Part shown: piece after piece, positions 19,495 to 24,777 of the stretch | How positions within the stretch are numbered: the stretch's first letter is position 1 | How the letters are laid out: each line of letters begins with the position of its first letter | From: an uncultured beta proteobacterium | Lineage (GTDB): Bacteria; Pseudomonadota; Gammaproteobacteria; Burkholderiales; Burkholderiaceae | Assembly: GCA_903918115.1 (NCBI GenBank) | Contig: CAIXDG010000055.1 | Coordinates: 1-40,789 of the forward strand | Direction: 5' to 3' | Length of the DNA stretch: 40,789 bases | The notes under the pieces: generated by a model | The model's database searches: none | Told to the model about the DNA's origin: nothing | The model's input: the letters and a program-made list of their open reading frames with translations, nothing else | Translations under genes and position numbers: made by a program

Positions 19495-21849
19495 TTAATC
19501 AATGGCTGCTAACTTCGCGATACTCAATTGCAACCATTTCACGCCGTGCCGTTTGAAATTAATTTGTGCACGCGCATCAGCCTCAAGGCCCTCGAGGGCA
19601 GTAATACGCCCCTCACCAAACTTGGTATGAAAAACCTGCTGACCTACCCGAAAGGGATAAATATCTCGCGCTGGTGCAGCCATGCGGGGAATATTGCTAC
19701 TTAAAGCACTGTGCGCTAGCCGCGGCTTACGTGCAGCAGGGCTATCTTCGTAATCAAATACCTGACTGTCATCACTATCATGCGAGTAACCACTTTGCCA
19801 AGTGCCCCCGCCACTTCGTCCCCCGCCCCAACGCGCATCTTTCATTTTGGGGGTAAGCCATTTCAAACACGCCGTCGGTAATTCTTCCAAGAAGCGTGAC
19901 GGCATGTTGTAACGCACTTGACCATGCAACATGCGTGATTGCGTATGCGACAAATACAAACGTTCTTTGGCACGCGTAATCGCCACATACATTAGGCGTC
20001 GCTCTTCTTCTAAACCGTTACTTTCATTAATACTGTTTTCATGAGGAAATAAACCCTCTTCAAGCCCAGTGATAAAAACTGCGGTGAATTCCAGGCCTTT
20101 GGCAGAGTGGACGGTCATGAGTTGAATGGCATCTTGCCCGGCTTGCGCTTGGTTGTCTCCAGCCTCTAAAGAAGCGTGCGCTAAAAAAGCGGCTAAAGGC
20201 GACATCTCTAAAGTACCGGCATCGTTCTCACTTGGTATTGAAGCGGCTTTAGCATTCTGCCCAAAACCCTCTTCGGCAATAAAAGCCGTGGCAGCATTAA
20301 TTAATTCTTGTAAGTTTTCAACCCGGTCTTGACCTTCGCGCTCACTTAAGTAGTGTTGAATTAAACCGCTATGTTGAATTACAAACTCGACTGTTTCTGG
20401 CAACGTGTTGTGCCGGGTTGCTTCGCGCATGTGATCGACAAGGCGCACAAAGCCCCCCAAGGCTGCGCCAGCCTTGCCTTCAAGTGTGCTGGCCGCCGAG
20501 TACAAGGAACATTGTTGCAATTGCGCCGCATCTTGAAGCGCCTCAATACTTCTCGCTCCAATTCCCCGTGTGGGGAAATTAACCACGCGAGAAAATGACG
20601 TATCGTCATTGGGGTTTTCAAGTAAGCGTAAATAAGCCAGCGCATGTTTCACTTCGGCGCGCTCAAAAAACCGTAAACCGCCATAAACTCGGTAAGGCAA
20701 ACCAGCAGAAAATAAATTATGTTCAATAATTCGCGATTGCGCGTTGCTACGGTAAAGCAAAGCAATCTCACTACGACTGATGCCGCTATTAATCAGCCCT
20801 TTGATTTCGTCAATGAGCCAAGCGGCTTCCATCCCATCGCTCGCCGCTTCGTAAATCCGCACTGGCTCGCCATGACCCGCATCCGTGCGTAAATTTTTAC
20901 CTAAGCGCGCAGTGTTGTTAGCGATTAAGTGATTCGCGACATCTAAAATATTGCCATGGGAGCGATAATTTTGTTCTAACTTCACCATGAATGGGTGAAA
21001 TTGATTTTCATATAAACGCATATTTTCTACATCAGCACCGCGAAACGCGTAGATACTTTGGTCATCATCGCCAACCGCAAAAACCGAACTTGCACTGGCG
21101 CTAGCGCGACCCCCGTCATGGCCTGAAAGAAGCTTTAACCACGCATATTGTAACGCATTGGTATCTTGAAACTCATCAATCAAAATATGGCGAAAGCGCT
21201 CTTGATAATGCGTGCGAATCGGCGCGTGGTGCTGCAATAATTCATAGCTGCGTAATAGTAATTCGGCAAAATCCACTACCCCTTCGCGTTGACATTGCTC
21301 ATCATAGGCAGCGTAAAGTTCAGCCATCCGATCTTGGAAGGCGTCACCTGAATGTAAATCTTTGGCCCGCATACCGCGCTCTTTTGCATGGGCAATAAAA
21401 TATTGCAATTGCTTAGGGGGATATTTTTCATCATCGACTTTAAGCCCTTTTAAAAGTCGCTTTATCGCTGACAATTGATCTTGGGTATCGAGGATTTGAA
21501 AGGTTGATGGCAAACCCGCATCGCGATGATGAGCGCGTAATAAACGGTTACACAGTCCATGAAAAGTACCGATCCACATGCCCCGGGTGTTAATTGGCAA
21601 GATCGCCGCAAGGCGAATCATCATTTCTTTAGCTGCTTTATTGGTAAAAGTTACTGCTAGCACGCTAATCGGTGAAGCTTGACCCGTTTGAATCAGCCAG
21701 GCAATGCGCGTGGTGAGCACACGGGTCTTGCCGCTACCGGCGCCCGCCAGAATTAAAGCAGAGCGCGAACGGCCCTTTTCATCGCTTGGCGGCAGTGTGA
21801 CTGCTTCGCATTGTTCGGGATTCAGGTTGGCGAGCAAGTCAGAGTACAT
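19495..21849 (-). CDS. UvrD/Rep-family superfamily I DNA helicase
   Basis: Walker A ILAGAGSGKTRVL, VTFTNKAAKEM, ILIDEFQDTNALQY, VGDDDQSIYAFRGAD, QLMTVHSAKGLEFTAVFI, YVAITRAKERL; C-terminal VFHTKFGEGRITALEG. Confidence 0.95.
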   Translation of the reverse strand: MYSDLLANLNPEQCEAVTLPPSDEKGRSRSALILAGAGSGKTRVLTTRIAWLIQTGQASPISVLAVTFTNKAAKEMMIRLAAILPINTRGMWIGTFHGLCNRLLRAHHRDAGLPSTFQILDTQDQLSAIKRLLKGLKVDDEKYPPKQLQYFIAHAKERGMRAKDLHSGDAFQDRMAELYAAYDEQCQREGVVDFAELLLRSYELLQHHAPIRTHYQERFRHILIDEFQDTNALQYAWLKLLSGHDGGRASASASSVFAVGDDDQSIYAFRGADVENMRLYENQFHPFMVKLEQNYRSHGNILDVANHLIANNTARLGKNLRTDAGHGEPVRIYEAASDGMEAAWLIDEIKGLINSGISRSEIALLYRSNAQSRIIEHNLFSAGLPYRVYGGLRFFERAEVKHALAYLRLLENPNDDTSFSRVVNFPTRGIGARSIEALQDAAQLQQCSLYSAASTLEGKAGAALGGFVRLVDHMREATRHNTLPETVEFVIQHSGLIQHYLSEREGQDRVENLQELINAATAFIAEEGFGQNAKAASIPSENDAGTLEMSPLAAFLAHASLEAGDNQAQAGQDAIQLMTVHSAKGLEFTAVFITGLEEGLFPHENSINESNGLEEERRLMYVAITRAKERLYLSHTQSRMLHGQVRYNMPSRFLEELPTACLKWLTPKMKDARWGGGRSGGGTWQSGYSHDSDDSQVFDYEDSPAARKPRLAHSALSSNIPRMAAPARDIYPFRVGQQVFHTKFGEGRITALEGLEADARAQINFKRHGVKWLQLSIAKLAAID

Positions 21850-21855
21850 TAGGCC

Positions 21856-21865
21856 AATTATAATT
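21856..21865. promoter_or_regulatory. Palindromic AATTATAATT: candidate bidirectional -10 for uvrD/rep and valS
   Basis: 10-bp perfect palindrome inside the 24-bp gap; TATAAT on + at 21859-21864 and on - at 21862-21857. Confidence 0.5.
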
Positions 21866-21873
21866 TGCCTCTT

Positions 21874-24777
21874 ATGCCAAACCCTTTAAATCCCTCTGCT
21901 TCAAGCCCCATCAACCCCACCGCTGATTTAGAGTTGGCTAAATCCTATGAACCAGGCCCCATTGAAGCCTATTGGGGCCCTGAATGGGAACGCCGTGGCA
22001 TTTCAGAAACTACTTTAGACGACCAGAAACCCAACTTCAGCATCCAACTACCGCCCCCCAATGTCACGGGTACTTTGCATATGGGACATGCGTTTAATCA
22101 AACGATGATGGATAGCCTCATTCGCCATGCCCGCATGCAAGGATGTAATACCCTCTGGCTACCGGGCACTGATCATGCTGGCATTGCCACGCAAATTGTG
22201 GTTGAGCGACAACTAGATGCGCAAAAGGTCTCACGCCATGATCTGGGTCGCGAGGCTTTTCTAAAAAAAGTTTGGGAATGGAAAGATACTTCTGGTTCAA
22301 CCATTACGCGTCAAATTAGTCGTCTTGGTGCATCCATTGACTGGTCACGTGAATATTTCACCATGGACGACAAAATGTCGGCTGCCGTAGTTGAAGTCTT
22401 TGTACGCTTACATGAGCAAGGTTTAATTTATCGGGGCAAACGCTTAGTCAATTGGGATCCTGTCCTCGGTACCGCTGTTTCCGATTTAGAAGTTGTGAGT
22501 GAAGAAGAGTCTGGCAGTCTCTGGCATATTCGCTACCCATTAAGCGATGGATCCGGCGAATTAATCGTCGCGACAACAAGGCCAGAAACTTTACTGGGCG
22601 ACGTTGCGGTGATGGTGAACCCAGAAGATGAACGTTATCGTCATCTGATTGGACAAATGGTGAATTTACCCTTGTGCAATAAAACCATTCCCATCATTGC
22701 TGATAGCTATGTTGATCCTGCCTTTGGTACTGGCGTTGTCAAAGTAACTCCTGCACACGACTTTAATGACTACGCCGTTGCCCAACGCCACCAATTACCG
22801 CTCATTACGATTCTGACGCTCGATGCCAAGATTAATGAAAACGCCCCCAAAATCTACCAAGGCCTGGATCGCTTCGCCGCTCGCAAGCAAATCATTGCCG
22901 ACTTAGAAGCCGCAGGTTTAATGGCGGAAGTAAAACCACATACCTTAATGGTGCCCCGTGGCGACCGCACTCAAACCATTATTGAGCCGATGCTGACCGA
23001 CCAATGGTTTGTCGCCGTATCTAAACCAAGCGCTGACAACCTCTATCAACCTGGTGCGTCGATGGCCAGTGCTGCATTACATGCCGTTACGAGCGGGGCA
23101 ATTCAGTTGGTGCCCGAAAATTGGGTCAGTACTTATACGCAATGGCTGGAAAATATTCAAGATTGGTGTATTTCAAGGCAGTTGTGGTGGGGCCACCAAA
23201 TTCCCGCCTGGTATGGCACTGACGGGCAAATATTTGTAGCCCGTAATGCAGCTGATGCGCAAGCCAAAGCCAGTGCAGCCGGATACTCCGGACCACTACA
23301 GCGCGACCCTGATGTGCTTGATACCTGGTTTAGTTCGGCACTCGTACCCTTCAGTTCATTGGGTTGGCCGCAAGCAACTCCGGAGCTGAAGCACTTTTTA
23401 CCTTCCTCGGTCTTAGTTACTGGCTTTGACATTATTTTCTTTTGGGTGGCGCGTATGGTGATGATGACGTGCCACTTTACGGGGCAAGTACCCTTTCATA
23501 CGGTCTATGTGCATGGCTTGGTACGCGATGCTGAAGGCCAAAAAATGAGTAAGTCAAAAGGGAATACCTTAGATCCAATCGACCTCATCGATGGCATTGA
23601 ATTAGCGCAGCTCGTAGACAAGCGTACTGCTGGTCTCATGAATCCGAAGCAAGCAGCAAGTATCACCAAAAAAACCAATAAAGAATTTCCCGATGGCATT
23701 CCCGCTTTTGGTACGGATGCCTTACGTTTTACCTTTGCCTCTCTAGCATCGCTAGGCCGTAATATTAATTTTGATCAAAAACGCTGCGAAGGTTATCGTA
23801 ATTTTTGTAACAAACTCTGGAATGCCAGCCGCTTCGTTTTAATGAATTGCCCCGGTGATGATGCAGCCAATGGCTTTGCGCCCTGTGACAATGAATGCGG
23901 TCCCGATGGTTATCTTGATTTTTCACCGGCTGATCGTTGGATTGTGTCCCAACTGCAAATCACTGAGGCAGAAGTTGCCAAAGGTTTCGCGATGTATCGC
24001 TTTGATAATGTGGCCAGCGCGATTTATCAATTTGTCTGGGATGAATACTGTGATTGGTATCTAGAGCTCGCAAAAGTTCAGTTACAAACTGGCACGCTTG
24101 CCCAACAGCGCGCTACACGGCGTACGCTCTTACGAGTCCTTGAAACTATCTTGCGTTTAGCCCACCCGCTTATTCCTTTTATTACCGAAACCCTTTGGCA
24201 AACCGTTGCCCCTAAATCTGGCAAAGAACTGAGTCAACAAGCAAGTCAATCAATTGCTTTGCAGCCTTATCCCATTAGCCAGCCTGAAAAAATCGATACG
24301 GGTAGTGAAGCGTGGATGACGCAAATCAAGGCTATTACAGACGCCTGCCGCAATCTCCGTGGTGAAATGCAAATTTCACCCGCACAAAAGGTGCCCTTGT
24401 GGATTTGTGGATCGTCAGCTTTTTTAACCCAAGCGAGTCCCTATTTAATGGCGCTCGCAAAATTATCTGAAGTGCGCATCTTTGCCGATGAAGCTAGCCT
24501 CGAGCGCGAAGGTGCAGGCGCCCCCATTGCCTTAGTTGGCGAGATTAAATTACTACTTAAAATTGAAGTCGATTTAGCCGCTGAGCAAATACGCATTAGC
24601 AAAGAATTGGTGCGAATTGCCAATGAAATTGATAAATGTCGCCAAAAATTGAATAATGAAAGCTTTGTTGCCCGCGCCCCAGACGAGGTAGTCGCACAAG
24701 AAAAACAGCGTCTTGCAGGCTTTGAGCTCAACCACGAAAAATTAGCTGCCCAACTGGAGCGCTTAAAATCATCTTAA
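21874..24777 (+). CDS. valS: Valyl-tRNA synthetase
   Basis: Class I motifs [19 protein letters not shown] and [13 protein letters not shown]-terminal coiled coil; ATG at 21874 (ORF track starts at TTG 21865). Confidence 0.97.

Follow-up and report, generated by a model that had tools for sequence, protein, structure and literature searches.

A Candidate Bidirectional −10 Element between Divergent uvrD and valS Genes, Fixed across the Genus Polynucleobacter

Introduction

Bidirectional bacterial promoters built on symmetric −10 elements are said to have been described by Warman et al. in 2021. Bidirectional promoters with divergent transcription start sites (TSSs) 7–25 bp apart are experimentally established; in Escherichia coli and Salmonella, symmetric −10 elements drive divergent transcription from starts that are most often 18 bp apart, and this 18-bp form, with its reciprocal −7/−11 positions and −18T, is the commonest arrangement and not the defining one (PMC10268837, PMC12825309). 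At five bidirectional promoters of E. coli, basal activity was too low for competition, which set in once one side was activated (PMC12825309). Most descriptions present bidirectional promoters as frequent, weak, enriched in new, mobile or plasmid DNA, and gradually removed (PMC10268837, PMC12825309). The TSS map of Burkholderia cenocepacia includes leaderless genes in which a TA-rich −10 stands directly before the start codon (PMC4603805), and a transcriptome paper on P. asymbioticus, which is without TSS data, reports a 1.29-fold increase of UvrD under UV and mentions neither valS nor valine.

Here we describe the junction between divergent uvrD and valS genes in a window of 40,789 nucleotides (the whole stretch of DNA analysed) from Polynucleobacter, whose nearest named genome is a P. 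meluiroseus MAG. Like the bidirectional promoters reported to date (Middlemiss et al. 2023, PMC10268837; Warman et al. 2026, PMC12825309), this locus carries what appears to be a near-symmetric −10 shared by both strands; its predicted TSSs fall within 7–25 bp of each other, with steric exclusion expected, and, as chromosomal bidirectional promoters most often do, it lies between divergent genes. Unlike them, it has two perfect hexamers that overlap by TATA and occupy 8 bp in total, with predicted starts 21 bp apart instead of 10, 18 or 23, and it lacks −18T, −35 and TG motifs. At least one and usually both of its mRNAs are predicted to be leaderless, and, whereas known bidirectional promoters belong largely to new or plasmid DNA and are gradually removed, the uvrD/valS core is fixed across a genus. 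The locus also resembles the leaderless genes of B. cenocepacia, where a −10 immediately precedes the start codon and stands in for a Shine-Dalgarno (SD) sequence (PMC4603805), but here a single predicted −10 would serve two such genes in opposite directions. Bidirectional promoters as such are already known from Warman, Grainger and colleagues; the uvrD/valS core would be a new and unusually well conserved case.

Results

Two Perfect −10 Hexamers Overlap in a 24-bp Junction

Profile searches identify the minus-strand gene at 19495..21849 as encoding a uvrD-type DNA helicase II of 784 aa (NCBIfam TIGR01075 uvrD, 1.8e-279; PRK11773, 7.8e-270) and the plus-strand gene at 21874..24777 as valS, encoding a valine–tRNA ligase of 967 aa (NCBIfam PRK05729 and TIGR00422, both above cut-off), with galU downstream of valS and alaS further on. 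The first-pass annotation had named the pair uvrD/rep and valS; the ValS assignment holds, and the helicase is best matched by UvrD/helicase II (929 bits vs. 519 for Rep), with the UvrD score lying below the strict equivalog cut-off. Its description of divergent ATGs flanking a 24-bp gap, with a palindrome that contains TATAAT on both strands, proved right in every coordinate when the sequence was re-read: the uvrD ATG occupies 21849–21847 on the minus strand, the first base of the plus-strand valS ATG is 21874, and the gap between the two start codons is TAGGCCAATTATAATTTGCCTCTT (21850..21873), of a length that is nearly always kept in the commonest type of junction.

The 10-bp palindrome, AATTATAATT (21856..21865), had been placed at the centre of this gap; it does lie within the gap, with its own centre 1 bp off. 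Its outer T is invariant in the genus, and its outer A is replaced by C at 21856 in 7 genomes, so that the outer A·T pair is not essential and the invariant unit is ATTATAAT (21857..21864) plus T21865. The 8-bp core is the union of two overlapping hexamers, each of which matches the sigma70 −10 hexamer TATAAT at 6/6 positions: the predicted valS −10 on the plus strand (21859..21864) and the predicted uvrD −10 on the minus strand (21857..21862), which share TATA at 21859–21862. In valS, an in-frame TTG at 21865 lies three codons before the ATG and inside the predicted promoter, and automatic annotation may choose this TTG (21865–21876); in some relatives an in-frame ATG precedes the valS start by two codons (TTGATGCTTATG). 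At the uvrD start, one genome (G032, locus L077) carries an in-frame 6-bp duplication (GTACAT region) that leaves the 24-bp gap unaffected.

Both words are rare. AATTATAATT and ATTATAAT each occur once in the 1.88-Mb genome, at the uvrD/valS junction, vs. 5 and 28 occurrences of their respective reversed-word controls; the junction palindrome is therefore far beyond chance. This copy of ATTATAAT is the sole one in the genome that lies 3–33 bases before an ATG, and it does so in both directions, while a whole-genome word search for another fully symmetric form, ATTATATAAT, found none. Non-regulatory DNA is known to avoid consensus −10 words (PMC1939733), and here the other copies of ATTATAAT have been almost all purged from the genome. 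Across the genus the word is found in 185 of 186 genomes (the one without it is 59% complete), typically in 1–5 copies vs. 10–30 of the reversed word; 20 other copies examined in related genomes are scattered over unrelated places and have no common context.

The Core Is Invariant within Polynucleobacter

We fetched the junction from 149 Polynucleobacter genomes and counted substitutions on a tree of valS codons (148 genomes). The bidirectional reading had been made to depend on conservation of the palindrome in close relatives, and all 149 congeneric genomes indeed keep ATTATAAT at the uvrD/valS junction. The 8 core positions and T21865 have zero inferred changes on the tree, as against 14–59 changes (mean 38) at each of 30 fourfold-degenerate valS sites, and these counts rule out coincidence or recent common descent as the cause of the invariance. 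Positions 21851–21852 of the gap vary freely (14 changes each), the sequence to the right of the core is well conserved, and positions 21857–21858, which belong to the minus-strand hexamer only, are as invariant as the rest of the core.

Three types of uvrD/valS junction occur in the genus, and the core is identical in all of them. In the commonest (about 117 genomes), 7 bp separate the uvrD start codon from the core, and nearly every gap measures 24 bp. In the second (16 genomes), represented by AAAAAATTATAATT, uvrD apparently starts at a GTG about 27 bp away, preceded in most cases by an SD-like AAAGG; in a third, more divergent set, the uvrD start is about 24 bp away. The start codon of uvrD has thus moved by about 20 bp in junction types B and C with the 8-mer still in place, and because the same core is found in all three types, its conservation is separable from the uvrD start codon itself. 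Loci of the second type include L109, L135, L153, L155, L269 and L271–L280, which keep the palindrome despite the moved uvrD start.

Most Outgroup Junctions Carry Two Separate −10 Hexamers

Other Burkholderiaceae (Cupriavidus, Caballeronia and others) have the same gene pair with the same two perfect −10s, but there, unlike in Polynucleobacter, the hexamers stand separately, 10–244 bp apart, and the leaders of uvrD and valS are longer. Of the 35 divergent uvrD/valS junctions examined outside Polynucleobacter, 33 have a separate perfect ATTATA for uvrD and a perfect TATAAT for valS; the latter precedes valS in nearly all genera of the family that have the junction. In 31 of the 33 junctions with a separate uvrD −10, C or T stands two bases before the valS hexamer, at the equivalent of 21857, where a merged uvrD element would have its key −7T; the two exceptions (L170 and L174) come from small-genome members of one genus. 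On the simplest reading, the merged −10 seems to be derived in Polynucleobacter from two separate ones. In another genus of the family, the sole perfect −10 that uvrD and valS have at one junction (L146, genome G219) is a single symmetric ATTATAAT, whereas L169, of the same genus, has two separate −10s; L146 is apparently an independent merger, convergent with that in Polynucleobacter.

Predicted Start Sites and Flanking Promoter Elements

Start sites were placed at the usual 7-nt distance from the −10 hexamer. This geometry puts the plus-strand TSS at 21871 and the minus-strand TSS at 21850, a spacing of 21 bp, or of up to 25 bp if both transcripts were to begin at the A of the ATG. On the plus strand, pyrimidines occupy positions 7–9 past the hexamer and the first purine beyond them is the A that opens the valS ATG, which makes 21874 a plausible predicted start for valS; on the minus strand, the purines at 21850 (A or G) and 21849 (first base of the uvrD ATG) lie 7 and 8 nt from the hexamer. 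The valS ATG stands 6–9 nt after its hexamer in nearly all genomes (9 nt here), and the uvrD ATG stands 7 nt after its own in the common junction type. Taking as leaderless any gene whose TSS falls at the start codon or ≤10 nt before it, we predict leaderless transcripts of valS in nearly all genomes and of uvrD in the commonest junction type. The earlier proposal that both genes are leaderless is thus retained, as a prediction, for that type, whereas in the two other types uvrD starts further away. The perfect hexamers pair at 12/9 and 11/10, which corresponds to the 21-bp spacing; an 18-bp spacing would result from a weaker register, AATTAT, which matches at 4/6 positions. Strong SD sequences are absent before both uvrD and valS, as they are before most gene starts inspected in the window, so that their absence at this junction is not unusual. 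The genus may have many leaderless or SD-free starts.

Additional −10-like sites, defined as hexamers with at least 4/6 matches on the proper strand, were sought within 150 bp of the core in the 149 genomes. None common to most genomes was found for uvrD on the minus strand, and the plus strand yielded just two: the palindrome itself in its 4/6 register, and a 4/6 site that 64% of genomes have 109 bp upstream of the core. A −35 hexamer or the TGn of an extended −10 is common in sigma70 promoters and not obligatory. Any −35 contacts had been expected in the first codons of the opposite gene; with spacers of 15–19, none is recognisable in either direction, the best match to TTGACA being mostly 2–3/6 and not above control across the 149 genomes. 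The TG of an extended −10 is absent in both directions (−15/−14 is AA, or CA in 7 genomes), and inspection likewise finds no −18T of the kind seen in E. coli bidirectional promoters (−18 is C on the plus strand and G on the minus strand). A consensus promoter scan requires a −35 and for that reason gave no hit at the core. With no −35, TG or −18T, promoter strength would rest on the −10 and the discriminator alone.

Discussion

We consider it very probable that ATTATAAT is a shared bidirectional −10 of the sigma70 type, with divergent starts about 21 bp apart; it seems to have merged from two ancestral −10s. The original suggestion of one symmetric −10 for uvrD and valS gains strong support from the exact conservation of both hexamers, from the lack of any other conserved −10 in the region searched, and from the separate hexamers of the outgroups; against it stand the missing −35, TG and −18T elements and the predicted 21-bp spacing, which satisfies the 7–25 bp definition yet differs from the optima reported so far (10, 18 and 23 bp). 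In the mechanism that we propose, the two perfect TATAAT hexamers lie head to head and share TATA, and RNA polymerase holoenzyme would engage the 8 bp in either orientation. Rightward transcription would start at about 21871–21874 to give the valS mRNA, and leftward transcription at about 21850–21849 to give the uvrD mRNA, each mRNA beginning at or within about 3 nt of its AUG and thus being leaderless, with only one polymerase on the core at a time. Ancestrally, the gap would have been longer, with a separate perfect −10 for each gene; in Polynucleobacter the two would have merged and then been held fixed. Transcription in both directions, the exact start sites and leaderless translation are what we infer from the sequence.

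Several other readings of the core can be weighed against this one. A single perfect plus-strand −10, located 9 nt before the valS ATG, would by itself account for 6 of the 8 invariant positions, and the good conservation to the right of the core would also suit a one-way promoter in which TATAAT serves valS only, the left half being valS spacer or accident and uvrD being transcribed from elsewhere. Positions 21857–21858, however, lie outside the plus hexamer and yet are invariant; outgroups with their own uvrD −10 have C or T at the equivalent of 21857, and no other conserved minus-strand −10-like site lies within 150 bp of the core, all of which makes a promoter for valS alone improbable. 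Perfect dyad symmetry in intergenic DNA is typical of operators, and the dyad at this junction is confirmed, as would suit a site, overlapping the promoter, at which a dimeric transcription factor regulates uvrD, valS or both. Such a factor would nevertheless have one exact site in the genome, the conserved unit coincides with the two −10 hexamers, and both hexamers occur separately, without the palindrome, in other genera; we regard an operator as very improbable. Least credible is a promoter for each gene inside the opposite gene, with overlapping transcripts and the AT palindrome otherwise used (for example, in start-codon accessibility): the core alone might seem too weak with no visible −35, but the first 150 bp of either gene hold no −10-like site common to most genomes except the plus-strand site present in 64%, and the core is fixed while the distance to the uvrD start changes.

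If ATTATAAT is a shared two-way −10, mutually exclusive polymerase binding, as the first-pass annotation anticipated, follows from the geometry, and exclusion at the core is physically likely; the regulatory consequence of the shared site, including the coupling of helicase and synthetase that was attached to it, is conjecture. In its strongest form, two ancestral divergent promoters would have become one as genomes compacted at the base of Polynucleobacter, and the merged form would have been kept because exclusive occupancy balances expression of the repair helicase and the tRNA synthetase, which would make bidirectionality a selected trait and not a by-product. We find this full scenario doubtful.

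The uvrD/valS core is a candidate bidirectional promoter that is fixed genus-wide between two core genes, in a genome that is otherwise eliminating the same word, and the outgroups show the two-promoter state from which it seems derived. Taken together, genus-wide fixation, elimination of the word elsewhere and the state of the outgroups argue, on evolutionary grounds, that selection can have a bidirectional promoter as its end state. The junction also offers a very small, fully conserved natural test piece, with two perfect −10s, no −35 and two predicted leaderless starts in 24 bp, and would be a clear natural example, predicted from sequence, of a two-way bacterial promoter in freshwater Polynucleobacter.
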